NCBI GenBank assembly: GCA_947589595.1
Contig: CANQBV010000008.1
Coordinates: 1-64,000 of the forward strand
Direction of reading: 5' to 3'
Length of the DNA stretch: 64,000 nt
DNA from: an uncultured Clostridia bacterium
Lineage (GTDB): Bacteria > Bacillota > Clostridia > Oscillospirales > SIG627
Below the pieces are notes generated by a model. The model saw only the letters and a program-made list of their open reading frames with translations, was not told where the DNA came from and ran no database searches. This document shows positions 18,052 to 35,016 of this stretch, piece after piece (the first letter of the stretch is position 1; each line of letters opens with the position of its first letter). The position numbers and the translations under genes were made by a program.

Positions 18052-18080
18052 ATTATAACGCAAAAGATGCAATTTGTCAA
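18052..18080 (-). promoter_or_regulatory. Predicted promoter of glyQS
   Basis: On the minus strand, TTGACA (18075-18080), a 17-base spacer and TATAAT (18052-18057). The -35 overlaps the end of the upstream ABC gene. Confidence 0.7.
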
Positions 18081-20323
18081 AGAGAATCCGGATTCTTTTT
18101 GGTTTTCTTGATGGCGGACATTTGCCGCTGCGCCATGACAAGGTCGTGATAAATGCCGCCCTGTTTTAAAAGCTCCTCGTGCGTGCCGATCTCGGCAACG
18201 CTCTTTTTATCCAGAACCAAAAGCTTCGTGGCGTTGCGCAGGGTGGAAAGCCGGTGCGCAATGGCAATGGTGGTGCGGTTTTGACAGAGCTTTGCCAGCG
18301 CATCCTGCACCAGCTTTTCGGTTTCGGTGTCGAGGGCGGAGGTAGCTTCGTCGAGAATCAGAATTTTCGGGTCATGCAGGACGGCGCGGGCAATGGCCAC
18401 GCGCTGCCTTTCCCCGCCGGAAAGCGTGTAGCCCTTTTCGCCCACCACGGTGTGGTAGCCGTCCGGCAGCTTCATAATAAACGAATGGGCGTTGGCGAGC
18501 TTGGCGGCGCGGATCACCTCCTCATAGGTGGCGTCGGGCTTGGCGTAAACGAGGTTTTCATAAACCGTGCCGGAAAAGAGGAAGGTTTCCTGCAAGACCA
18601 CGCCGATCTGGCTGCGGAGCGAGTGCTGTGCGATATCGCGCACGTCGACGCCGTCGATGCGGATCGCGCCTTTGTTGACGTCATACAGACGCATCACCAG
18701 GTTGATCAGGGTGGATTTCCCTACCCCGGACCGGCCCACAATACCGAGCATTTCCCCGGGATGAATGGAAACGGAGACGTTTTCCAGCACGTTTTCGTTT
18801 TCATCGTACCCGAAATAGATGGAATCGATTTCAATTTCGCCGCGGATCGTCATTTCCCTGGCGTTTTCCGCATCCGAAACATCCGGTTCTTCGTCAAGCA
18901 CTTCAAATACTTTGGAAACCGAGGTCATCGTGCGCTGCAGCATACGCGGAACACGCGCCATCCAACGCAGCGGCGAATAGATAAGCGAAACATAGGAAGT
19001 GAACATCGTCAATTCCCCGATGGTCATTTGTCCCTCGAGGATGTGCGTGCCGGCGTAATACAGCAGAATAAAATTCCCCACCTGCATGAGAAAATTGGCA
19101 TAGGGCATGAGCGACGACCAGACGTATTCGCTGCGGACGGAAACGTCGCGCAGATTGGCGATCACCTTATCGTACTTGGCAATCTCGCTTTTTTCGGTGC
19201 CGTAGACCTTGACCACGCGCACCCCCTGGAAAATATCGTGCAAAGTGGTGTCGGCATTGGCGCTCTCAAACCACTGGCGGCGGTACAGCTTCTGAGTACG
19301 GCGCCAGATGACGCGGAACAGAATGGCTACAAACGGCATCGGAAGCAGAATGAAGATCGCCAGGCGCCAGTCGGTGGAAAACAACATGGTACCGACAAAC
19401 AAAAGCGTTAAGACTTGCTCCAAGATATTCGGGAGCTGATGGGTCAGAAAGTTGGAAATTTCCTCGGTGTCGCGCGAGACACGCGAAATCAGGTCGCCCG
19501 CGGTGTGGCGCGAAATGCCGGCAACGGAAAGCGTTTGAATATGGCGGTAAATATCGCCCCGCATCTTTACGACCGTTTTGTTGGAAACGCGGGACAAAAG
19601 ATTGTTGCGGCAAACGGAGAAAATAACGATGAGAACCCGCACCAGCGCCATGGAAAGTACCACCAGTACCATGCTGCTGATATGAGAAACGGCATACTCA
19701 ATATCGCTGTTCTGCAAAAAACCGTCCACCAAATTGCGCTGGATCATGGGGATCACCAGATTGAAAAGCGTGGTCGCGCCGAACAATATCATAGAGAGCA
19801 GAATTCCCAAAAGCTGCGGGCGCACCATGGCAAGGAGCCGGCCGGAAAAACGCTTTTTGCTGTCGCAGTGGTGGCAGACCTGACTGCCGGGCGCATAGGG
19901 ACGGTGGCAACGCGGGCAGGTAGAGCTTTTGGGAACAAAAACAGCGTCCTTTGCCTGCAAAGAACCGTCGGCAATTTCGTTTACGATGCGCACCAACTGC
20001 GAAATATTCTTTTTGTCCTTGCCGCGCGAACGGCAAAATTCCAGCCAAAGCCCTTCGACCCGGATCTCGCAGACAGCAATGCCGGTGTAGCCGTAAAAAC
20101 GCGCTTCCTCGATTTTTTCCAGTGGGAAGCAGCGTTCCAGAACCTCGCCTTTTCTCTTTTCCAGGCGGTAGAGGGCGTCCTCTGCCAGAAAAACCTCGCC
20201 CTCTATGAGGGAAAGGCAGAAATTGGAGGAAATCGGAAAATGGAAAACGGCTTTTCCATGAGCGGAAACAAAGTATTCTTCGAAGGGAAACGGCTCGTTT
20301 TCCCAAGACGCTTTTCGTTTCAA
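18077..20323 (-). CDS. ABC exporter half-transporter with N-terminal zinc-ribbon domain (subunit 2)
   Basis: The 748-residue protein starts at a TTG ending at 20323, 7 bases after GAGGA. Residues 1-130 form a beta-rich soluble domain. A zinc ribbon follows (Cys136, Cys139, Cys150, Cys153), then six membrane helices (about 165-470). The ATPase carries Walker A GRSGVGKST, signature LSGGERQR and Walker B ILILDEATSALD. All key ATPase residues are present. With the second half-transporter at 20853-23141 it probably forms a heterodimeric exporter. The DUF1854 gene between them marks the system annotated in some genomes as cyanophycin-associated, but no cyanophycin gene is in this window. The substrate is unknown. 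Confidence 0.85.
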   Translation of the reverse strand: MKRKASWENEPFPFEEYFVSAHGKAVFHFPISSNFCLSLIEGEVFLAEDALYRLEKRKGEVLERCFPLEKIEEARFYGYTGIAVCEIRVEGLWLEFCRSRGKDKKNISQLVRIVNEIADGSLQAKDAVFVPKSSTCPRCHRPYAPGSQVCHHCDSKKRFSGRLLAMVRPQLLGILLSMILFGATTLFNLVIPMIQRNLVDGFLQNSDIEYAVSHISSMVLVVLSMALVRVLIVIFSVCRNNLLSRVSNKTVVKMRGDIYRHIQTLSVAGISRHTAGDLISRVSRDTEEISNFLTHQLPNILEQVLTLLFVGTMLFSTDWRLAIFILLPMPFVAILFRVIWRRTQKLYRRQWFESANADTTLHDIFQGVRVVKVYGTEKSEIAKYDKVIANLRDVSVRSEYVWSSLMPYANFLMQVGNFILLYYAGTHILEGQMTIGELTMFTSYVSLIYSPLRWMARVPRMLQRTMTSVSKVFEVLDEEPDVSDAENAREMTIRGEIEIDSIYFGYDENENVLENVSVSIHPGEMLGIVGRSGVGKSTLINLVMRLYDVNKGAIRIDGVDVRDIAQHSLRSQIGVVLQETFLFSGTVYENLVYAKPDATYEEVIRAAKLANAHSFIMKLPDGYHTVVGEKGYTLSGGERQRVAIARAVLHDPKILILDEATSALDTETEKLVQDALAKLCQNRTTIAIAHRLSTLRNATKLLVLDKKSVAEIGTHEELLKQGGIYHDLVMAQRQMSAIKKTKKNPDSL

Positions 20324-20336
20324 AACAAATCCTCGC

Positions 20337-20849
20337 TTACAGATACAGTTGAATCTTGGAATAGCTCTTCCGATCCAGTTCGTTCACGTTTTCAATTTCA
20401 TAGCGGCAGCCATCCGTATCGACCACAAAAAGCCGTTCCTCGGAAACGCGGATCAGGCTGCGCTGGATATCCTTCACGGTAAAGGAAAGGCGACCGAAAT
20501 CGGTTTCGACCTCCCAATAGGAAAAGCCGAAACGCTCGTTGACCTTGACAATTTTTTTGATTTTGGGAGCAAAGTAGCGCTTTTCCAATTCACTGCGCAC
20601 AAGCTCGGCCGTTTCCTCTGGGAAAACGGCAAGGTCGCGGATCATGCCGACCTCCTGTTTTTCCTCATTCAGAACCGAGAGGTACTCCTCGTTTTTTTCA
20701 AAGGGAAACGCCTTTGCAAGAAAGACGCGCGCATCGAAGGAAAGAGTGGGGATGCTGCACATCAAAATTTTCTGCTCGGTCATATAAAATCGGCAGTTTT
20801 CGGGATTCAAATAGAATACCGTCACCGCGTTTTCAAAAGACTGATCCAT
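20337..20849 (-). CDS. DUF1854 domain protein associated with the ABC pair
   Basis: The 170-residue soluble protein is mostly beta strand with a few helices and has no signal or membrane segment. Sequences such as EKRYFAPKIKKIVKVNERFGFSYWEVETDFGRLSFTVKDIQRSLI and RLFVVDTDGCRYEIENVNELDRKSYSKI are characteristic of DUF1854. It lies 3 bases from the upstream half-transporter gene and 13 bases from the downstream one, so the three form one operon. Its beta-rich plan resembles the N-terminal domains of its two partners, and it may be a free regulatory domain or adaptor of the exporter. No biochemical role is established that I know of. Confidence 0.8.
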   Translation of the reverse strand: MDQSFENAVTVFYLNPENCRFYMTEQKILMCSIPTLSFDARVFLAKAFPFEKNEEYLSVLNEEKQEVGMIRDLAVFPEETAELVRSELEKRYFAPKIKKIVKVNERFGFSYWEVETDFGRLSFTVKDIQRSLIRVSEERLFVVDTDGCRYEIENVNELDRKSYSKIQLYL

Positions 20850-20852
20850 CGT

Positions 20853-23141
20853 TTATTCCTCGATTCCAATGGTTTTCATGGCTTCCATCTGCAATTGGTA
20901 CAGCGTGTGATACACGCCTTTTTGCTTTAAAAGCTCCTCGTGCGTGCCGGCCTCGACGACACGGCCGTCCTCCACAACAATGAGGCTGTCGGCGTCGCGC
21001 AGGGTGGACAGCCGGTGCGCAATGGTAATGGTTGTGCGGTTCCGGGTGATCCGGGCAAGCGCTTCCTGAATGCGGCGCTCGGTTTTGGTATCCATGGCGG
21101 CGGTGGCTTCGTCCAAAATCAGAATTTTCGGATTTTTCAAAATCGCACGGGCAATGGAGATCCGCTGCTTTTCCCCGCCGGACAAAAGCTTTTTATCCAT
21201 ACCGACCATGGTATCGTACCCATCCGGGAAGCCGACGATGAAATCGTGCGCGCCGGCCGCCATGGCGGCGGCAATGGCTTCTTCGCGCGTGATATCGGGC
21301 GCGGAATAGCGGATATTATCTAAAATCGTACCGCGGAAAAGATAGGTCTCCTGCGAAACAATGGCGATGTTTTTGTGCAGGTCGGCAAGCGAGATCTCGC
21401 GGATATCGACCCCGTCAATGAGGATTTTTCCGGAAGCAGGATCGTAGAGCCTTGTCAAAAGATTGGCCAGGGTGCTCTTTCCTGCACCGGTGTGGCCGAC
21501 AATACCGAGCGTTTTCCCTGCCGGCACATGGAACGAAACGTCCTGAATGGTTTTTTTGCCGGGCGCATAGGAAAAATCGACATGAGAAAATTCCACCTCG
21601 CCCCGCACCTCCGGAAGCGAAACGGGGCTTTCCGCTTCTTTCACTTCCGGTTCGGTTTCGTAGATTTCAAACAGACGCTGCAGCGCGTTGAGCGAATCCG
21701 CCATGTTGCCGAAGAAATCCGCAAAGAAATTCAGGGGCTGGTAAAGCATGGACAGATAGGAAACAAACAGCGCCAGGGTGCCGTAGCTGATCCCGCTGCC
21801 GGGAGAGACGCCGTTTTGAATCACAAAGTAACCGCCGACGCCCCACACCAGATAGGTGGAAAGCTGTACCAAAAGGTGCATGAACGGCAAAATGGTGTTG
21901 TTGCGTACGGCAACCTTGAGCCGCGTTTCGCCAAAGGCGGTGCTGGCGGAATGAAATCGTTCAACCTCCGTTTCCTCCCGTGAAAAAGCCTTGACAATGC
22001 GCATGCCGCCGAGAACGTCGGAAAGAATGGAGTTGAATTTGGAACGCTTGCTGTAGCTTTCCGCCTGCAGTTTTTTAAAATGCCGCAGCACCAGAGCGTA
22101 ACCGACAAACAATACCGGCATGGGCAAAAAGATCACCACGGTCAGCATGGGGTGAATGGTGAACATGATGACAAGAATGCCGACAATCTGCACGATATTG
22201 CTCAAAAAATACGGCACGCCGTCGCAGAAAAACCAGTACAGGGTCGTGGCGTCGGCATTGATCTGCGTCAAAAGCTTGCCGGTGTGGCGCGAGGAAAAGA
22301 ACGAATAGGAAAGCCGTTCAAACGAGGAAAAAATGGTTTTTTTTAAATCATAGGTCACGTAGGCGGAAACGCGCGCGCCGACAAAGCCGGTGAACATGGA
22401 ATTGAGCGCGACCAAAAAGTTTGCCCCCGCCACGCACAGAACAATGGCCAAAACCTTGCCGTAATACGGTGAAGTTTCGCTGAGCACCTGATCGAAGAAG
22501 AACTGTTGGCTTAAAATCGGCGCGATCAGATCCAAAACGCCTCCGAGCAGCACGGTAAGGAGCACCAGCAAAATATAGCCGGAATAGCGCCGGAAAAACG
22601 GCAGCAGTTTTTTGATAAGGCTTCCCCTGTCGGAGCATTTGCGACAGATCTTTTTTTCGGGATCCGCATAGGGCGTGTGGCAGCGCGGGCAGGAAGGGCG
22701 CTGTTTCTTTTTTTCCTTTGGTTTTTCCCCGCTTTCCAGAAAACGCTTCACGGTTTCGCAAAACTCAGACGCTTCCTTCAAGCAGTGCGCCGTGGCATAA
22801 AACAGCAAAACCGGGCCGTTTTTGGTTTCGACAATGACTCGAAAAACAGAAACCTGTTCCTCTAATTTGACGTCCAGTACTTCCTCCATGGGCAGATACA
22901 CCCAATCCCATTCCTGTATTTTCCGTTCCGGTTTGCGGGAAGAAAAAAGAAAAGCGCCTTCCTTTTTCTGAAGCGATACGGTAGTAAAGAGACAAGCGAT
23001 GCCTTCTTCACAAAAAAGTGTGGTTGCATCGCAATAGGTTTCCTCACGAGACATATCTGTTTTCAGAACAGAAAGCGCCTTATCGGGATCCAGTCCTTTT
23101 CGGAGAAATATTTGGACAATTTCTTCCGGAATATTTTCCAT
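20853..23141 (-). CDS. ABC exporter half-transporter with N-terminal zinc-ribbon domain (subunit 1)
   Basis: The 762-residue protein has the same layout as its partner. A soluble N-terminal domain (residues 1-145) comes first, then a zinc ribbon (Cys151, Cys154, Cys166, Cys169), six membrane helices and an ATPase. The ATPase has Walker A GHTGAGKST, signature LSGGEKQR and Walker B ILILDEATAAMD. Both subunits keep the catalytic Glu, so neither site looks degenerate. A zinc ribbon placed just before the first membrane helix is unusual for exporters and suggests control by metal, redox state or a protein partner. It is the first gene of the operon, behind a near-consensus promoter. Confidence 0.85.
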   Translation of the reverse strand: MENIPEEIVQIFLRKGLDPDKALSVLKTDMSREETYCDATTLFCEEGIACLFTTVSLQKKEGAFLFSSRKPERKIQEWDWVYLPMEEVLDVKLEEQVSVFRVIVETKNGPVLLFYATAHCLKEASEFCETVKRFLESGEKPKEKKKQRPSCPRCHTPYADPEKKICRKCSDRGSLIKKLLPFFRRYSGYILLVLLTVLLGGVLDLIAPILSQQFFFDQVLSETSPYYGKVLAIVLCVAGANFLVALNSMFTGFVGARVSAYVTYDLKKTIFSSFERLSYSFFSSRHTGKLLTQINADATTLYWFFCDGVPYFLSNIVQIVGILVIMFTIHPMLTVVIFLPMPVLFVGYALVLRHFKKLQAESYSKRSKFNSILSDVLGGMRIVKAFSREETEVERFHSASTAFGETRLKVAVRNNTILPFMHLLVQLSTYLVWGVGGYFVIQNGVSPGSGISYGTLALFVSYLSMLYQPLNFFADFFGNMADSLNALQRLFEIYETEPEVKEAESPVSLPEVRGEVEFSHVDFSYAPGKKTIQDVSFHVPAGKTLGIVGHTGAGKSTLANLLTRLYDPASGKILIDGVDIREISLADLHKNIAIVSQETYLFRGTILDNIRYSAPDITREEAIAAAMAAGAHDFIVGFPDGYDTMVGMDKKLLSGGEKQRISIARAILKNPKILILDEATAAMDTKTERRIQEALARITRNRTTITIAHRLSTLRDADSLIVVEDGRVVEAGTHEELLKQKGVYHTLYQLQMEAMKTIGIEE

Positions 23142-24523: not shown

Positions 24524-25261
24524 ATGAAAAAAATAAAATGGATTTGTTTTCTTTTGAGCCTTGCTCTTTTGCTTCCGATTTCAGTTTCGGCGGCGGACGG
24601 CGCGCAAAACTGGTATTTCACTCAGCGCACAAAAAATACGCGCCCCGAGCTGCCCGCTCTTGACGCGGAATTGGGCTTTGGCATCGGTAAAGAAGAAAAA
24701 GTTCTCTATCTGACCTTCGACGCCGGCTACGAAAACGGCAACGTTGCGAAAATCGTTGATGTTTTAAAAGAAAATGACGTGACCGGCGCTTTCTTTGTAC
24801 TTTCCCATTTTGTTACCGCCAATCCCGAGCTTGTGAAAACCATGCGTGCGAACGGCAATTTGATATGCAACCATACGGCAACACACAAAAATATCACTAA
24901 AATTTCGACGGAAGAAATTCAATCGCAGATCCGGCGGCTGGAGGAGGAATACCAAAGCCTGACCGGCGAAGCCTTATCTCCCTATTTCCGCCCGCCGGAG
25001 GGCACGTATTCCGCTTCTTCCCTAAAAGTCGTGCATGATCTGGGGTATCGCACCGTCTTTTGGAGCGTTGCCTATGCCGACTGGGACAACAACAAGCAAA
25101 TGGCGCCCGAAAAAGCGCTGGCAAAGCTAGAGAGCCTTGTGCACGACGGCGCGGTAATTTTGCTGCACCCCACCTCGGCCACCAACGCCGCCATTTTGGA
25201 TAAATTCATCCACGATATGAAAGAAAAGGGCTACCGTTTTGGCAGTTTAAATGAATTATGA
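24524..25261 (+). CDS. PdaA-like polysaccharide deacetylase
   Basis: The 245-residue carbohydrate esterase family 4 protein has a signal peptide (residues 1-24, ending SVSAA). Motif 1 is TFDAGYENG (64-72), the form typical of PdaA, the N-acetylmuramic-acid deacetylase needed for muramic-delta-lactam in spore cortex. Metal-binding His117 and His121 are in NHTATH, and FRPPEGTYS forms motif 3. It acts outside the membrane on peptidoglycan. A spore role is inferred from the PdaA-type motif only. The stop overlaps the next gene's start (ATGA). Confidence 0.85.
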   Translation: MKKIKWICFLLSLALLLPISVSAADGAQNWYFTQRTKNTRPELPALDAELGFGIGKEEKVLYLTFDAGYENGNVAKIVDVLKENDVTGAFFVLSHFVTANPELVKTMRANGNLICNHTATHKNITKISTEEIQSQIRRLEEEYQSLTGEALSPYFRPPEGTYSASSLKVVHDLGYRTVFWSVAYADWDNNKQMAPEKALAKLESLVHDGAVILLHPTSATNAAILDKFIHDMKEKGYRFGSLNEL

Positions 25262-25941
25262 AAAGAAGCGTTATCAGAATCATCGGCTTTTTGGTGCTGA
25301 TGGGAATGCTGCTTGCCTTGCCCTCTCAGGCGGAAATTATCCGCAAAGGGGCGGAGGAGAGCAAAAAAATCGCCCTCAGCTTTGACGACGGCCCCAGCGA
25401 ACGAAACACGGAAGCGATTTTGGCGCTTCTGGAAAAATACCAGATCAAAGCCACCTTTTTTGTGATCGGGGAAAACGCAGAAAGAGATCCCGACCGCATC
25501 CGCAAAATATCTGATGCGGGGCACGAGATCGGCAATCACACCTATCACCATCAATATATCACCAAGCTAAACGAAGCCCAGCTTCGGGAGGAGATCCTGA
25601 AAACAGAATCTCTTCTCACAGAGATCTGCGGAAAAAGACCGGTTCTGTTCCGTCCGCCGGGCGGCGCTTACAGCGATAAAGCCTTGCAGCGCATCGAAGA
25701 AATGGGCTATACCAGTGTGCTGTGGTCGGTCGATACGCACGACTGGACAAAGCCGAAAATCGCCACCATCGTGACCGTGGTGGAAAAAAATGTTCTCGGC
25801 GGCGATATTATCCTCTTTCACGATCTGGAGCAAAAAAACTCTCCGACTCCCGCTGCCCTGGATATCATTATTCCCTTTTTCCAGGAGAAAGGCTATGAGT
25901 TTGTAACCGTATCAGAACTGTTACAGGAACAAGGCGGCTGA
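25258..25941 (+). CDS. Polysaccharide deacetylase (CE4, chitooligosaccharide/peptidoglycan type)
   Basis: The 227-residue secreted or membrane-held protein has an N-terminal hydrophobic segment (residues 6-25). The classic NodB motifs are present: SFDDG (41-45), HTYHH with His94 and His98, and RPPGGAYS. It removes acetyl groups from amino sugars in the wall. It overlaps the PdaA-like gene by 4 bases, so both are made together. The two differ in motif 1 (FDDG against FDAG), which suggests different targets in peptidoglycan. A terminator follows. Confidence 0.88.
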   Translation: MKRSVIRIIGFLVLMGMLLALPSQAEIIRKGAEESKKIALSFDDGPSERNTEAILALLEKYQIKATFFVIGENAERDPDRIRKISDAGHEIGNHTYHHQYITKLNEAQLREEILKTESLLTEICGKRPVLFRPPGGAYSDKALQRIEEMGYTSVLWSVDTHDWTKPKIATIVTVVEKNVLGGDIILFHDLEQKNSPTPAALDIIIPFFQEKGYEFVTVSELLQEQGG

Positions 25942-25998: not shown

Positions 25999-26055
25999 AG
26001 AGGTAGATGATGGGAAATTATCGAAATGAAAACTGATTTTAAGGAATGCTGTATC

Positions 26056-28215
26056 ATGTCCACACCTTTTTACATAGAGAAAATTGAAATCGAACAATTC
26101 AAGAAAATACAAAATCTTACGTTTGATCTGAAAAAGGAACCCGCAATTTTTTTCGGCGGGATCGGCAGCGGAAAAACTTCGATCTGTGAATTTATTCTCT
26201 TTGCCCTGTACGGCGAAGAAGCAGTATTTCTGCCCATGCGGGACAGCGAAAACTTTTCCGGCAGGTTGTGGATCCTGCGCGGTAAAGAACATCTGTGCCT
26301 GGAAAGAAGCTTGATTGCCGGGCTGGAAACGCTTTCTTTTACCGATGAAAACCAAAATCCGGTTCCTTTTGAAGCTTCTCCGGGCTTTACGCTGACGGGA
26401 ATGGACCGGGAAGGCTTCGATCTGGTGGCTTATTTTGAACAGGGGCATTACGGCAAGCCGTTTTCCCGACCGGATCGTCGTTTTATAAGACAGATCTCCC
26501 GCACGCGCCAGGAAACCGACGAGCTTTACCGCGATTTTGACGTTCTGGAGAACGATCTGCACGCCTTCTGCAACGAAGAAAAGACCGGCAAGCTCGACCT
26601 GATCGCCGCCAACAAAGAGGCACTGACGGAAAAATTACGGCAAAAACCGCTTTTGGAGGAAGAGATCCGCGTTTCGGAAGAACATTTGGCGGATATTTCC
26701 GCCAAGTTGGAGGAAAACGACAAACGCGTGGTGATTTTAAAGGCAGATCTTGCCGCGTTTACGGATGACCGCAAGCTTTTTGAAAATAAAGAAAATGCGC
26801 TGGAAATGAAAAACGAGATTCTGGCGAAAGAAAAAAAGCTGCGGATCCTTAATTTTGAACTTTCCGGCAAAATCGGAAAGCTTTCGCAAAACGAACTGGA
26901 AGAGATGAAGAACCTTTACAATGCCCTCTCTCTTTCCATTACCGAGCTCGCCGAAGCACGCAACCGGCTCACCATGGCGGAGGAGAACCTTTCCTATCAC
27001 CAGACTCTGTTTACCGGAAAAGATAACCTGGCGGACTACGAGGACGCCAGTAAAAAAATCAAAAAGAACAAAAATCTGCATATCGGTTTCCAATCCTTTG
27101 GGATTCTGTTCATTGCGTTGGGCGGAATCTGCGGATTTTTGCTGCACTACTATGAATTGGGCTGGCCGATCGCGCTTGCCGCCATGCTCTCTTTGGCGTT
27201 GGTGGGAATTTCCTTTTTCTGCTTGTCTACGATTTTCAGTTCCGCAATCCGGAAAATCATATCCGAATTTGAAAGAGCAAATTTGGGAGACTTTGAGCAC
27301 GCGTACGGACTGCTGGAGGCTCATGCCAAATCCGAGGAAATTTACCACGAGCAGGCGACTCTTGCCCGCAGGGACTGTGAAAAAAAGATCGCCGCCTCCG
27401 AAGCCGCCGAGGATGCGATTTTCAAGCGGATCTCCGCGCTTGGTTATACCGAGGACGACGGCGAAATTTTGGCAATCTGCGATGAAATTATTGAAGCCAA
27501 CGAAGGGTATTTCGATCTCGAAGCCGAAATCGAAGCGGAAAAGGCCGAGTACGAGCGGCTGATCCGCGCCAACGTGGAGAAGGATTCCTCCGATTTAAGC
27601 AGCGAATTTGTCGCCCTGCAAAAGGAACTGGATTTTCTTTTGCGGCAAAACGAATCTCTGATGCGCAAACGCGCTCTTTTGCAGAAAAAGCTGGAGGAGC
27701 TGCGCGCCGCTCTTCCGGACGAAGCACAGCTTCAAAAGGAAATCAGCGTTCTTTCCCAAACCGAGAAAGAAATGCGCAATCAATTCCGCGCCCTGCAAAT
27801 TGATTTTTCTTTGGTCGAGAGCCGCAAGAACGAATTTGAAAAGGGCTTAAAGGCCTTGCTTGCCGAGCGGATCAATGAAAAGCTCTCTTTCCGTTTGTCA
27901 GAGGAAGAGCGATATCTGTTTGACGATGAATTTGAACTCTGCTATTGCGGAAACGGCAGTGTGCTGCGTCTTGCCAATTTCGGCGGCGGCATTGCCGAAT
28001 TGGGCTTTTTAGCTTTCCGCCTGAGCTTGGCGGAATTGATTTGGGAGAATCCCACGACCATGATTTTTGACGACCCGTTCGCTTTTTTTGACGCGGAAAC
28101 CGCCAAATCTCTTTCACAGGTACTGCAAGCCTCCTCTCAGCAGCTGATCATTGCCACCTCCTCTATGAAATCGGTAGAATTGCTGCAGGATAAGGCTGTG
28201 CTCTTTACACTCTGA
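26056..28215 (+). CDS. YhaN/Rad50-like AAA ATPase with membrane segments in the coiled coil
   Basis: The 719-residue SMC/Rad50-like protein starts at the ATG at 26056, 10 bases after AAGGA. Walker A GGIGSGKTS lies at residues 34-42. A long helical arm follows. Near residues 345-395 are two strongly hydrophobic segments (FGILFIALGGICGFLL and IALAAMLSLALVGISFFCL). A second coiled coil precedes an ABC-type signature (NFGGGIAELGF) and Walker B IFDDPFAFFD. Bacillus YhaN has a similar membrane-interrupted arm and pairs with the nuclease YhaO. Here no nuclease is adjacent, and the stop overlaps recG by one base. A role in DNA repair or replication at the membrane is inferred. Confidence 0.75.
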   Translation: MSTPFYIEKIEIEQFKKIQNLTFDLKKEPAIFFGGIGSGKTSICEFILFALYGEEAVFLPMRDSENFSGRLWILRGKEHLCLERSLIAGLETLSFTDENQNPVPFEASPGFTLTGMDREGFDLVAYFEQGHYGKPFSRPDRRFIRQISRTRQETDELYRDFDVLENDLHAFCNEEKTGKLDLIAANKEALTEKLRQKPLLEEEIRVSEEHLADISAKLEENDKRVVILKADLAAFTDDRKLFENKENALEMKNEILAKEKKLRILNFELSGKIGKLSQNELEEMKNLYNALSLSITELAEARNRLTMAEENLSYHQTLFTGKDNLADYEDASKKIKKNKNLHIGFQSFGILFIALGGICGFLLHYYELGWPIALAAMLSLALVGISFFCLSTIFSSAIRKIISEFERANLGDFEHAYGLLEAHAKSEEIYHEQATLARRDCEKKIAASEAAEDAIFKRISALGYTEDDGEILAICDEIIEANEGYFDLEAEIEAEKAEYERLIRANVEKDSSDLSSEFVALQKELDFLLRQNESLMRKRALLQKKLEELRAALPDEAQLQKEISVLSQTEKEMRNQFRALQIDFSLVESRKNEFEKGLKALLAERINEKLSFRLSEEERYLFDDEFELCYCGNGSVLRLANFGGGIAELGFLAFRLSLAELIWENPTTMIFDDPFAFFDAETAKSLSQVLQASSQQLIIATSSMKSVELLQDKAVLFTL

Positions 28216-30206
28216 TGGAAAAGCTTTCCCTGCAAACGTCTGTGAGCGCCCTGCACGGCGTGGGAAAAGTGCGCGGCGAGGCGCTGAAAAAAAACGGCAT
28301 TGTTTGCATTGGCGATCTTTTGGAATTATTTCCGCGCCGGTACCTGAGTAACCGTATTTATTTCTTGTCGCCCGAGCTTTGCGGGCAATACGCCGGCTAT
28401 GAATTGACAGTCGACACCACCCCAATCCTGGCGCTGCTTCCGGGGAGAAGGCGGCTTTTGAAATTGATTGCCTCAGACGGCGCCGGAACCAAGGTTACGA
28501 TCTATTATTTCAATCAGCCCTATTTAAAAAACCAGATCTTGAAGGGCGAAACATATTTTTTCTTTGGCGAGCTGCACGAAAAAAACGGCGTATTCTCTTT
28601 ATTTTCGCCGGAGCGGGAAAAGGAACGAAAAAACGGGGAGGAATGGCGGCCGGTTTACCCGGCGATCGGCGGTATTTCCTCGAAAACGCTGGAGAAGCTG
28701 ATCCGTTCGGTACTGTACAATGTGCTTTCGGAAATCCGGGAAACGCTGCCGGAGACGATTCTGCAGCGCTTTTCCCTGCCGAATCGCGCGAAAACCATTC
28801 TTTCTCTGCATGCGCCGCTGACGGAAGCGGATTTACACGCGGCGCAAAGGCGATTGACCTTTGAAAAATATTTTGCTTTCGGACTGGAGCTGCAGCGCTT
28901 TCAAACAAAAGAAAAGCAGCGTGTTGCAGACGGGCTTGCCCCCTGCCGGTGGGAAAAGTTTTTTGCCTGTCTTCCCTACAGACTCACCGGAGCGCAGCAA
29001 AAAGCGGTTTCAGAAATCGAAAACGACTTGGTGGGAAGCGGAAAGATTCCGCTGATGAACCGTCTTTTACAAGGGGACGTCGGCAGCGGCAAAACAGCGG
29101 TGGCGGCGGCGGCGGCCTTTTTATGTGCGGAAAACGGCGGCGGTGTGCTGTTTATGGCGCCGACGGAAATTCTGGCGCGCCAGCATGAAAAAACCTTCCG
29201 GGCCATTTTTTCGCAATTAAAGATTCCAGTCTTTCTTTTGACCGGCTCTACCGCCAAAACGGAGCGGACGGCGATTATCCGCGAAACGACCCAAAACCGG
29301 CCTTATATTTTGATCGGTACGCACGCGCTGATTGAAGACACGGCGCTTTGCGGCAACGTACTTCTTGCGATCACCGACGAACAGCACCGCTTTGGCGTGC
29401 GCCAGCGCGCCAAACTGCGCGAAAAAGGAACGCTGTGCCATACGCTGGCCATGTCGGCAACACCGATCCCGCGCAGCTTGGCCCTGTTTTTATATGCGCC
29501 GGAGGAGATCAGCGTGCTGGATGAACTGCCGCCGGGGCGGCAGAAAATCGATACTTTTTATATCGGTGAGGACAAAAAAAAGCGCGCCTATGCCTTTCTG
29601 CGCGAAAAGCTGCAGGCGGGGCAAAGGGCCTATGTGGTATGTCCTTTGATCGAGCCGAACGAACAGCTTTGCGGGCTGCTTTCCGCTCAGGAAGCCTACA
29701 AAGAGCTGCAAAAGGAATTTCGCGAATTCGGCGTCGGCTTTTTGCACGGAAAAATGAAAAACGCCGAAAAAAGCACCGTCATGGAGGCGTTTCAAAAGGG
29801 TGAAGTGCAGCTTTTGGTTTCGACGACGGTGATCGAAGTGGGCGTCGACGTGCCGGAAGCGACGGTCATGATCGTAATGAACGCAGAACGCTTTGGCCTG
29901 TCGCAGCTGCATCAGCTGCGCGGCCGCGTCGGCAGGGGAAAAGAAAAATCCTTTTGTATCCTCATTTCCGCTTCTTCTGCCAAAAGTGCGCGCGAACGGC
30001 TGAAAAAGCTGTGCGAAACCGACGACGGCTTTGAACTGGCACAATTTGATTTAAAAACGCGCGGCCCCGGCGAATTTTTCGGGGAGCGGCAAACCGGTTT
30101 TGCGTTTGCAAATCCCGAAGAGTTCTCTTTGGAATTTTTGCGCGACGCCATTCAGGCTGCCAAAGAGTTTCCCGGTCTTTTTCCACAAAAAACACTGCAA
30201 TACTGA
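28215..30206 (+). CDS. recG: ATP-dependent DNA helicase RecG
   Basis: The 663-residue helicase remodels stalled forks and branched recombination intermediates. The N-terminal wedge/OB domain covers residues about 1-240 (SALHGVGKVRGEALKKNG). Walker A GDVGSGKTA is near 289 and the DEQHRFG box near 388. The helicase C-terminal motifs follow (STTVIEVGVDVPEATVM and QLHQLRGRVGRG), then the RecG-specific tail (DLKTRGPGEFFGERQTGF). Its length is slightly short of the family's usual 680-700. It is translationally coupled to the upstream Rad50-like ATPase. Confidence 0.95.
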   Translation: MEKLSLQTSVSALHGVGKVRGEALKKNGIVCIGDLLELFPRRYLSNRIYFLSPELCGQYAGYELTVDTTPILALLPGRRRLLKLIASDGAGTKVTIYYFNQPYLKNQILKGETYFFFGELHEKNGVFSLFSPEREKERKNGEEWRPVYPAIGGISSKTLEKLIRSVLYNVLSEIRETLPETILQRFSLPNRAKTILSLHAPLTEADLHAAQRRLTFEKYFAFGLELQRFQTKEKQRVADGLAPCRWEKFFACLPYRLTGAQQKAVSEIENDLVGSGKIPLMNRLLQGDVGSGKTAVAAAAAFLCAENGGGVLFMAPTEILARQHEKTFRAIFSQLKIPVFLLTGSTAKTERTAIIRETTQNRPYILIGTHALIEDTALCGNVLLAITDEQHRFGVRQRAKLREKGTLCHTLAMSATPIPRSLALFLYAPEEISVLDELPPGRQKIDTFYIGEDKKKRAYAFLREKLQAGQRAYVVCPLIEPNEQLCGLLSAQEAYKELQKEFREFGVGFLHGKMKNAEKSTVMEAFQKGEVQLLVSTTVIEVGVDVPEATVMIVMNAERFGLSQLHQLRGRVGRGKEKSFCILISASSAKSARERLKKLCETDDGFELAQFDLKTRGPGEFFGERQTGFAFANPEEFSLEFLRDAIQAAKEFPGLFPQKTLQY

Positions 30207-31892: not shown

Positions 31893-31926
31893 ATAGGAAG
31901 TTTTGTGAAAACAGTTGAGGTTTAAA

Positions 31927-33321
31927 ATGGATTCTGCAAAGACACCCTTTCAGGAAAATAAAATGGGTACTATGCCCGTCGGACGCCTTCTTTCCGGTAT
32001 GGCGATTCCGATGATGATCTCCATGCTGGTACAGGCGCTTTACAACGTGGTTGACAGCATTTTTGTTTCCCACATCAGCGCTGTGGACGACAACGCGCTG
32101 AACGCAGTTTCGCTGGCGTTTCCGCTGCAAAGCTTAATGATCGCCTTTGCCGGCGGCACGGCGATGGGGATGAACGCCCTGCTTTCCCGTTCGCTGGGTG
32201 AAAAAAAGCAGGAACGGGCTGACCGGGCTGCCTGCACGGGTATTTTTCTGATTTTCTGCAACGCGCTGCTTTTTGCACTGATTGGCGGTTTTTTTGCCAA
32301 GCCTTTCTTTGCGATGCAGACCGGCACGGAAGCGGTGGTTCGTTACGGCACGTCTTACGTCCGCATCTGTCTGATCGGCTCGATCGGGCTTTTTTCGCAA
32401 TTCTGCTTTGAACGGCTTTTGCAGGCAACGGGCAGAACCACCTGGACCATGATCACGCAGATGACCGGCGCGGTGATCAACCTGATTCTCGATCCGATTT
32501 TGATCTTCGGACTTTTCGGCTTCCCCCGCATGGAGGTTGCAGGCGCGGCGGCGGCCACCATTACCGGGCAGATCGTTGCGGCAATCATGGCGCTGATCAT
32601 CAACCTCAAAAGGAACCCGGATATTCACATCCGACTTCGCTATATCCGCTGGGACAGCCGGATCGTGGGAAAAATATATAAAATCGGACTGCCTTCGATC
32701 GTCATGCAGGCGATCGGCTCGGTAATGATCTTTACCCTGAACCAAATCCTTCTGACCTTTCATGAAATCGGCGAAACCGCGACCGCTGTTTTCGGGATTT
32801 ACTTTAAATTGCAGAGCTTTGTATTCATGCCGATTTTCGGTCTGAATAACGCCATGGTGCCGATCATTGCCTATAATTACGGCGCCCGCCAGCACGACCG
32901 TGTGAAAAAGACGATCCGCCTTGCCATGATCGGGGCGGAAGCGCTGATGCTGATCGGCGTGATCCTTTTTGAAACGGCTCCCGAAATTTTACTGGGCTTT
33001 TTCAGCCCCACCGAAAACGCCGTCACACTGGGAATTTCAGCGTTGCGGATCATTGCTTCGCACTTCCTTTTAGCCGGGGTGAGTATTGTTTCAATTTCGG
33101 TTTGCCAGGCGATCGGCAACCCGGTTCACGCTCTGATCGTTTCCGTTTGCCGGCAGCTTGTGGTGCTTTTGCCCGTGGCATGGCTCCTTTCGAGAACCGG
33201 TCTGCTTTGGACGGTGTGGCTTGCCTTCCCCATTGCCGAGTTTGTTTCAATGGTGCTGTGTCTGATCTTCCTGCGCGGTACGCTGAAAAAAGCAAAGGAG
33301 CACGCGCTGTCTGCTTTATAA
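31927..33321 (+). CDS. MATE family multidrug/cation exporter (first copy)
   Basis: The 464-residue integral membrane protein has 12 predicted helices in two MatE halves. The family-typical opening MAIPMMISMLVQALYNVVDSIFVS is at residues about 25-48. Such transporters export cationic drugs or metabolites using Na+ or H+ gradients. The ATG at 31927 with TGAGG 6 bases before it is preferred to an upstream TTG. A stem of CAAAAAGAAAGG and CCTTTCTTTTTG follows the stop. The substrate is unknown. Confidence 0.9.
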   Translation: MDSAKTPFQENKMGTMPVGRLLSGMAIPMMISMLVQALYNVVDSIFVSHISAVDDNALNAVSLAFPLQSLMIAFAGGTAMGMNALLSRSLGEKKQERADRAACTGIFLIFCNALLFALIGGFFAKPFFAMQTGTEAVVRYGTSYVRICLIGSIGLFSQFCFERLLQATGRTTWTMITQMTGAVINLILDPILIFGLFGFPRMEVAGAAAATITGQIVAAIMALIINLKRNPDIHIRLRYIRWDSRIVGKIYKIGLPSIVMQAIGSVMIFTLNQILLTFHEIGETATAVFGIYFKLQSFVFMPIFGLNNAMVPIIAYNYGARQHDRVKKTIRLAMIGAEALMLIGVILFETAPEILLGFFSPTENAVTLGISALRIIASHFLLAGVSIVSISVCQAIGNPVHALIVSVCRQLVVLLPVAWLLSRTGLLWTVWLAFPIAEFVSMVLCLIFLRGTLKKAKEHALSAL

Positions 33322-33654: not shown

Positions 33655-35016
33655 TTACATGGCGCTCTCGCTCTCCGGTTTCCAAAGCTTTCTGCGACAA
33701 AGGAAAAAGTAGGAGACCAAAAAGGCGGCGCTGAAAACGTAGGAGATTGGATAGCAGAGATACAGCTCGCCTAAGCTTGAATTCGGGGAGGCGAAAAACC
33801 AGACCCACAAAAGACGCGGCATACAAATGCCGAAAGCGTTGAGAATCATGGGAACCAGGGATTTTCCCATTCCTCGCAGACACCCCAAGGTCAGCTCCGA
33901 GAAAACGTACAGGACGTACGCCCAACTGACGATCATGAGCTTGGCGATTGAAGCGTCGATCACGTCAGGCTCGGTATTATATAGTCCGATGAGCTGCCGC
34001 GGAAACAGCGTCATAACCGCCGCCATGAGAGACACCGCAAGGACGCATATGGCAATGCTGCGGACCAAAAGCTGATCAATGCGGCGGTATTCTTTGGCGC
34101 CGAAGCACTGGCCGGTAAAGCTGACACAAGCGCTGTAAAAGCTGTTTAGAACCAGGTAGATAAAATTCGTGAGACTGTTGGAAGCGGCGTTCGCCGCCAT
34201 AACCGTATCGCCAAGTACGTTGACAGAGGACTGCAAAATCACGTTGGAAATGCTGAACACCAGACCGTTCATACCGCAGGGAATGCCGACCTTGATCAGC
34301 CGCCACAGCTCCTCTTTGTGGAAGCGTAATTCCCGGAAACGCATCTGAAAGACGTCGTCGGGCGAAAAGAGGATCCGCAATACCAAGATAGCAGAGATCA
34401 CCTGCGCCACGATGGTGGCAACTGCCACGCCCGCTACGCCCATGTGGAAAACGAGAACAAAAAACAAATTCAGGCAAACGTTAACGACACCGGTCAGAGA
34501 CAAAATGATCATGGGCCTTTTAGTGTCGCCGTGAGCGCGAAGGAGCGCTGCGCCGAAATTGTAGACCATGGAGGCCGGCACACCCAGGCAATAGATGCGC
34601 ATATAGAGCGTGGCTTGATCGATGACGTTTTCCGGACAGCTCATAATTTGCAAAAGCGGGCGCGATACGGCAAAGCCAAAAACGCCAAACAATACGCCGC
34701 CCACCGCTGACAGCAAAACGGCGGTGTGCATACACCGGGCAAGCTCTGCCTGCTTTTGGGCGCCCCGGTAATTGGCGCAGACAACATTGGCGCCAACGGC
34801 AAGACCGTTGAGCAGATTTAAGATCAGCACGGTGGCGGAGGAAGTGGAGCCCACGGCGGCGAGAGCGACTTTCCCCGCGTACTGTCCGACTACAATATTA
34901 TCCGCTGCATTGTATAAATGCTGCAGCAGGTTGCTGACAAGGATCGGAAATACAAAAATTAAAAGCTTTTTTACCAAGGATCCGTTCGTTAGGTCCATGG
35001 TGTGTCGCGATTTCAT
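33655..35016 (-). CDS. MATE family exporter (second copy)
   Basis: The 453-residue membrane protein with two MatE repeats has an N-terminal LIFVFPILVSNLLQHLYNAADNIVVGQYAG, typical of the clostridial DinF/NorM-related group. It has many internal differences from the MATE protein at 31927-33321, so this is not a recent duplicate. The start ending at 35016 follows GAGGCGG. The substrate is unknown. It is convergent with tRNA-Gln and the first MATE gene. Confidence 0.9.
   Translation of the reverse strand: MKSRHTMDLTNGSLVKKLLIFVFPILVSNLLQHLYNAADNIVVGQYAGKVALAAVGSTSSATVLILNLLNGLAVGANVVCANYRGAQKQAELARCMHTAVLLSAVGGVLFGVFGFAVSRPLLQIMSCPENVIDQATLYMRIYCLGVPASMVYNFGAALLRAHGDTKRPMIILSLTGVVNVCLNLFFVLVFHMGVAGVAVATIVAQVISAILVLRILFSPDDVFQMRFRELRFHKEELWRLIKVGIPCGMNGLVFSISNVILQSSVNVLGDTVMAANAASNSLTNFIYLVLNSFYSACVSFTGQCFGAKEYRRIDQLLVRSIAICVLAVSLMAAVMTLFPRQLIGLYNTEPDVIDASIAKLMIVSWAYVLYVFSELTLGCLRGMGKSLVPMILNAFGICMPRLLWVWFFASPNSSLGELYLCYPISYVFSAAFLVSYFFLCRRKLWKPESESAM

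Follow-up and report, generated by a model that had tools for sequence, protein, structure and literature searches.

What does a membrane-anchored relative of Rad50 do directly in front of the helicase gene recG, in a genome in which its customary nuclease partner was not found? The question is raised by a 64,000-nucleotide stretch from an uncultured Clostridia bacterium of the lineage Oscillospirales; SIG627 (contig CANQBV010000008.1, positions 1 to 64,000 of the forward strand; hereafter the window), where a gene for such an ATPase overlaps recG by one base (Table 1). The initial annotation had called the two genes fused in translation and had named RecG as the partner in the operon where YhaN relatives have the nuclease YhaO, with a membrane-linked system for stalled forks as an attractive possibility. 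Judged from its sequence, the ATPase is a descendant of SbcE (YhaN), and a derived one whose nuclease partner SbcF (YhaO) has been lost. On balance we think it probable that SbcE has here been remodelled into a scaffold or tether at the membrane, in which a joint in the arm would be the working part and the use of ATP optional.

Table 1. Positions in the window of the ATPase gene, its predicted elements, recG and the genes upstream (aa, amino acids).
Feature	Coordinates	Strand	Remarks
Tandem pair of related genes (by eye, polysaccharide deacetylases)	24524..25941	+	upstream, where other lineages have pgeF and the nuclease gene
SbcE/YhaN-derived Rad50-like ATPase, 719 aa, nuclease-less variant	26056..28215	+	
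Walker A GGIGSGKT, residues 34-41	26155..26178	+	in 14 of 16 family members; missing in both members of genus g5
Arm element 1, residues 219-248	26710..26799	+	best-conserved 30-residue window of 14 nuclease-less members; model helix breaks at about 233-235 and 248
Predicted membrane hairpin, residues 345-390	27088..27225	+	two hydrophobic helices with an 8-residue loop
Arm element 2, residues 506-535	27571..27660	+	model helix break at 504-515; the returning arm's counterpart to element 1
Altered ABC (ATP-binding cassette) signature ANFGGGIAEL	27973..28002	+	instead of the usual LSxG
Walker B TMIFDDPF	28057..28080	+	
TGATG stop/start overlap	28213..28217	+	ATPase TGA at 28213-28215 and recG ATG at 28215-28217, one base in common
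recG, 663 aa, short C-terminus	28215..30206	+	

The ATPase and its nuclease partner

The ATPase was modelled with AlphaFold2 from a nine-sequence alignment (mean predicted local distance difference test score 86.5). In the model the head is of the split ABC type, the antiparallel arm is interrupted, and a helical hairpin sits midway along the arm. The head resembles Rad50 (3av0_B; Z 25.1, 333 residues aligned, root mean square deviation 6.2) in a comparison that re-examined the Foldseek matches only and so does not exclude families absent from them. Pfam gives SMC_N at 35.9 bits, below the cut-off of 40, and lists no match to AAA_27 (PF13514) at E 10. An in-frame ATG at 26026 is an alternative start of the open reading frame that would add 10 residues.

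The two hydrophobic segments that the initial annotation had noticed comprise residues 345-363 and 372-390 (Kyte-Doolittle 2.0 and 2.5, respectively) and have one half of the arm on either side. Lysine or arginine occurs five and three times within 20 residues of the hairpin on its two flanks and not at all in its loop, which fits a topology with the head inside. Two segments exceed the threshold in 36 of the 38 ATPases in our motif table, which comprises all 16 from the family of the window genome and 22 relatives outside it; G032 and G023 have one segment each. We rejected the hairpin as a novelty of the recG-linked form, since nuclease-paired relatives have it too. In these relatives a calcineurin-like nuclease gene (PF00149) mostly precedes an ATPase gene with the same hairpin, which is the layout of YhaO-YhaN, or SbcEF; the description as YhaN-like therefore holds, and SbcE relatives in general carry the membrane anchor, which is not specific to a RecG system. 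Two SbcE-like ATPases (loci L177 and L178, genomes G135 and G083) have shorter arms (627 and 663 aa) and keep the hairpin. SbcE of Bacillus subtilis has a central transmembrane domain. PMC3896406 describes YhaN/SbcE as encoded with YhaO in yhaONM, and PMC6452273 names SbcEF as a system whose precise role is poorly characterised; that SbcF is YhaO is our own reading.

The usual pairing with a YhaO nuclease is nearly universal outside the family. In a set of 137 genomes of the order, a profile made from five nucleases of the ATPase neighbourhood matched 66 of the 68 ATPase-bearing genomes outside the family (the exceptions, G141 and G143, have an ATPase match and no nuclease match), and in 49 of these 66 the nuclease gene lies within 2.5 kb upstream of the ATPase gene. 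Within the family the ATPase is present in 16 of 22 genomes and the nuclease in two, both of genus g7. The same profile found no YhaO/SbcF-like nuclease in the window genome, a 1.43-Mb assembly that is 85.65% complete, or in its five congeners (0/6 in genus g1), so the YhaO gene elsewhere in the genome that might have spoken against the initial annotation was not found. When the 66 of 68 genomes outside are compared with the 2 of 7 sampled within the family, Fisher's exact test gives P = 2e-5, uncorrected for relatedness. In the ATPase tree (midpoint root) the 14 nuclease-less members cluster together beside g7 with support 100/99, and a single loss of the nuclease in the family fits this arrangement. 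Canonical SbcD (TIGR00619) has no match in genus g1. The window genome has a full-length match to AddA that scores below the family cut-off, which suggests that it still possesses its main enzyme of end resection.

Constraint on the arm and loss of Walker A

With the nuclease gone, the best-conserved part of the protein is no longer the head. We measured conservation as mean pairwise identity over 30-residue windows. Among 21 relatives outside the family (the short copy of G123 was omitted from the 22), identity peaks at Walker A (0.56) and at residues 643-672 of the C-lobe, in the signature/Walker B region (0.50). Among the 14 nuclease-less members the peak is arm element 1, on the outgoing arm (0.51 against an overall mean of 0.31), and between genera g1 and g5 the two best windows are elements 1 (0.64) and 2 (0.52), one on each arm strand. 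These peaks coincide with helix breaks in the model. In SMC proteins a joint lies at about such a position in the arm, and we infer from this position that the paired element may be SMC-joint-like.

An arm profile to which 13 of the 14 nuclease-less members contributed gives strong matches only in these 14 and weaker ones in g7 (E ~1e-25). It matches 25 of 394 genomes of the order, namely the 16 family members and nine weakly (E 5e-12 to 9e-7), seven of the latter in family f20. None of the six genomes of genus g3, from which the ATPase is missing, is matched, and an arm-only remnant in that genus was accordingly rejected. All 14 nuclease-less genomes have intact open reading frames for the ATPase, of 698-755 aa, and the gene is kept under selection. 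The ratio of nonsynonymous to synonymous substitutions (dN/dS) is 0.07 for G014/G018 and 0.12 for G001/G002, values that are rough because dS is 2.3 and 1.6, respectively.

That ATP use may be dispensable is suggested by genus g5, where a Walker A match is absent from the entire protein in both genomes and the signature and Walker B positions carry different residues. The two proteins (699 and 698 aa) are nonetheless encoded by intact reading frames, keep the hairpin and the arm elements, and are coupled to recG. Pfam no longer detects an ATPase in the g5 protein; its model still matches the Rad50/SMC fold (E 6e-12). Amino-acid-changing differences between the two g5 copies reach their maximum in the first fifth (0.44-0.55) and their minimum around element 1 (0.17), opposite in the head to the g6 pair, which differs at 0.045 in the first fifth and at 0.13 around element 1. 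No dN/dS is given for g5, as its synonymous sites are saturated.

The ABC signature seems to be altered throughout the family. By alignment, GGG or another sequence replaces LSxG of the ABC signature in 16/16 family members, while 22/22 relatives outside have an LSxG-like signature. We also considered the Walker B 'DD' of genus g1 as degeneration and rejected it, because DD is common among relatives outside the family.

Based on these patterns, we propose that the hairpin would anchor the tip of the arm in the membrane while the heads extend into the cytoplasm, and that the joint-like element would be the working part, either setting the shape of the arm or serving as a docking site for a partner. 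Neither ATP binding nor engagement of the heads would be more than optional by now, as suggested by the altered signature throughout the family and the loss of Walker A in g5. The protein may then tether or scaffold intermediates of recombination or of replication forks at the membrane; the cells in question keep AddA, and SbcD was not found in them. RecG would be made at a coupled ratio and act on the same intermediates; a direct contact with RecG is not part of this proposal. A bolder version, rather unlikely in our estimate, is that a protein of the SMC/Rad50 family is ceasing to be a nuclease clamp driven by ATP and becoming a scaffold that is tethered to the membrane and independent of ATP. 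In that version selection would act on the arm joint, joint production with RecG would serve the handling of branched DNA at the membrane, and g5 would represent the end state.

The likenesses to known systems are partial. With SbcE of B. subtilis the window protein shares the Rad50/SMC-like head and the long arm; SbcE, however, comes with YhaO, whereas the window protein lacks the nuclease, has an altered signature and is constrained chiefly in the arm. It resembles SbcCD/Rad50-Mre11 in the split ABC head and antiparallel arm, but those proteins carry a hook at the arm tip where the window protein has a membrane hairpin, and its arm is short and it has no Mre11/SbcD partner. SMC proteins with an arm joint (5xei, an SMC head with joint; Foldseek rank 10, E 3e-9; Z 21.5 over 337 residues) have an arm interrupted at a similar place; the window protein has the membrane hairpin instead of the hinge dimerisation domain, and no kleisin gene was seen beside it.

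Several points weigh against a scaffold with optional ATP use. In the window copy both Walker motifs are present and the head models well, so it may still hydrolyse ATP, and head windows rank second and third in conservation among the 14 nuclease-less members (0.48 at 34-63, 0.44 at 643-672). The arm element is weaker in genera g4 and g6, and its comparison with the joint draws on arm position; the alignment behind the structure model has only nine sequences. In three g1 members an LS/IS-x-G string lies just upstream of the GGG, which makes the signature alignment ambiguous there; the altered signature also occurs in the nuclease-bearing genus g7 and is therefore no marker of nuclease loss. 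Finally, the family comprises 22 genomes, and the named relatives are metagenome assemblies throughout. Those matched by the ATPase alignment are labelled Clostridia, Oscillospiraceae or Bacillota, and three records suggest goat or yak gut.

SbcE is among the least understood bacterial SMC-like proteins. As a natural experiment, a lineage that lacks the nuclease, and in one genus also the ATP-binding motif, while keeping the hairpin and the putative arm joint allows the parts of the protein to be considered separately; it indicates a region to mutate in laboratory SbcE and makes the purpose of the membrane anchor testable.

The position beside recG

We regard the RecG assignment as safe on profile evidence: RecG_wedge scores 45.9 bits (cut-off 23), DEAD and Helicase_C exceed their cut-offs, and the full-length NCBIfam RecG models fall slightly below theirs (681.8 vs 711; 623.7 vs 659.4). 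The stop and start codons overlap as the initial annotation had described, and this much of 'fused in translation' holds; no fusion protein is encoded, and overlaps of 1-10 bases occur in 7 of 27 co-directional picked gene pairs (at least 100 aa) of the window, so we rejected the overlap as special evidence. What is conserved is the arrangement. recG directly follows the ATPase gene in 15 of the 16 family genomes that have it (the exception is G015, of genus g8), so the lack of a conserved recG pairing, which would also have counted against the initial annotation, was not seen either. The pair survives across seven ATPase-bearing genera while other flanking genes vary, and 13/13 nuclease-less neighbours have an overlap of 1-8 bases between the ATPase stop and a recG start codon, a feature kept across genera.

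Does this conservation require a functional tie? It is quite possible, if short of probable, that the neighbourhood is simply inherited, an ancestral pgeF-sbcF-sbcE-yloU-yloV-recG cluster having lost its intervening genes, and that the ATPase is an ordinary SbcE-type protein acting at DNA ends. Families f3, f12 and f19 and genus g7 have this cluster in whole or for the greater part: the order is pgeF-nuclease-ATPase-recG in f19 and g7 (pgeF was not seen at 2/5 f19 loci) and nuclease-ATPase-yloU-yloV-recG in f3 and f12. Here pgeF is our own name for a gene encoding a Cu-oxidase_4 protein, and yloU and yloV are names that we presume for two neighbour clusters from the gene order of Firmicutes. 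Outside the family recG lies within 3 kb downstream of the ATPase gene on the same strand in 10 of 61 genomes, five of them with direct adjacency (all f19) and five with yloU-yloV between; seven of the 68 ATPase genomes were dropped from this count as recG was not found at E 1e-80, and contig ends can hide neighbours (for example in G061). The simplest history would start from an ancestral cluster; some lineages would have lost yloU-yloV from it, and the family of the window genome the nuclease, in a single event. Because the neighbourhood seems ancestral and is seen in other families, the adjacency of ATPase and recG is partly an inherited position, and the idea that RecG took over from the nuclease as partner stays a conjecture, as ATPase and recG are neighbours also where the nuclease is present. 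The two genes can also part: they lie apart in g8, and all six g3 genomes lack the ATPase and retain recG. Inheritance alone, however, hardly accounts for a pair kept so widely, and so tightly coupled, despite changing flanks, and it leaves both the arm-centred conservation and the genus without Walker A unexplained. The readings of an inherited position and of a tethered scaffold overlap, and our degrees of confidence are not meant to sum to one.

Two loci show further forms of the neighbourhood. L098 (G032) carries a nearly complete, ancestral-looking cluster of pgeF, a 543-aa open reading frame, the nuclease, ATPase, yloU, yloV and recG, in which the 543-aa frame has no family assigned and overlaps its neighbours as picked. 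At L187 (G123), yloU-yloV-recG is convergent with the ATPase-nuclease pair and the ATPase is short (483 aa), indicating that the neighbourhood can invert yet keep its genes adjacent.

That RecG itself is the working partner, recruited or limited at forks by the membrane-anchored arm with the joint as its docking site, strikes us as quite unlikely. The coupled pairing and the strong constraint on the arm element would suit it, and a passage of PMC7031210, citing Costes 2010, has both RecG and SbcE on the list of SsbA interaction partners in B. subtilis. Yet in 28 RecG sequences (the contig-cut copies of G001, G014 and G018 were omitted) we found no specific insertion and only three weak sites, so RecG co-adaptation was rejected, and g8 has the full arm element though its recG lies elsewhere. 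We found no paper on a link between YhaN, YhaO or SbcE and recG, a weak negative, since the literature covered was small and mostly excludes subscription papers. A decaying gene, for which the lost nuclease and the state of g5 and g3 as later stages might be cited, is very improbable given 14/14 intact reading frames, dN/dS well under 1 and an arm element conserved above the head.

Other genes at the locus and in the window

Upstream of the ATPase, genes of a polysaccharide-deacetylase-like family are present in all six g1 genomes. At other loci a DUF4358 lipoprotein gene (family match made on L090, a member of genus g6) is a second conserved neighbour; it immediately precedes the ATPase gene or, in the case of genus g3, recG (L090:8902-9522 on the minus strand, L093:4126-4752, L100:6041-6547 and others); the latter arrangement was seen in 5/6 g3 maps.

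Elsewhere in the window, two tandem ABC exporters (18077-20323 and 20853-23141, both on the minus strand) have a long N-terminal extension that ends, by eye, in a zinc-ribbon-like CPxC...CxxC, and a 170-aa protein is encoded between them (20337-20849). Two related membrane proteins of a single sequence cluster, MATE-like by eye, are encoded convergently at 31915-33321 (plus strand) and 33655-35016 (minus strand).

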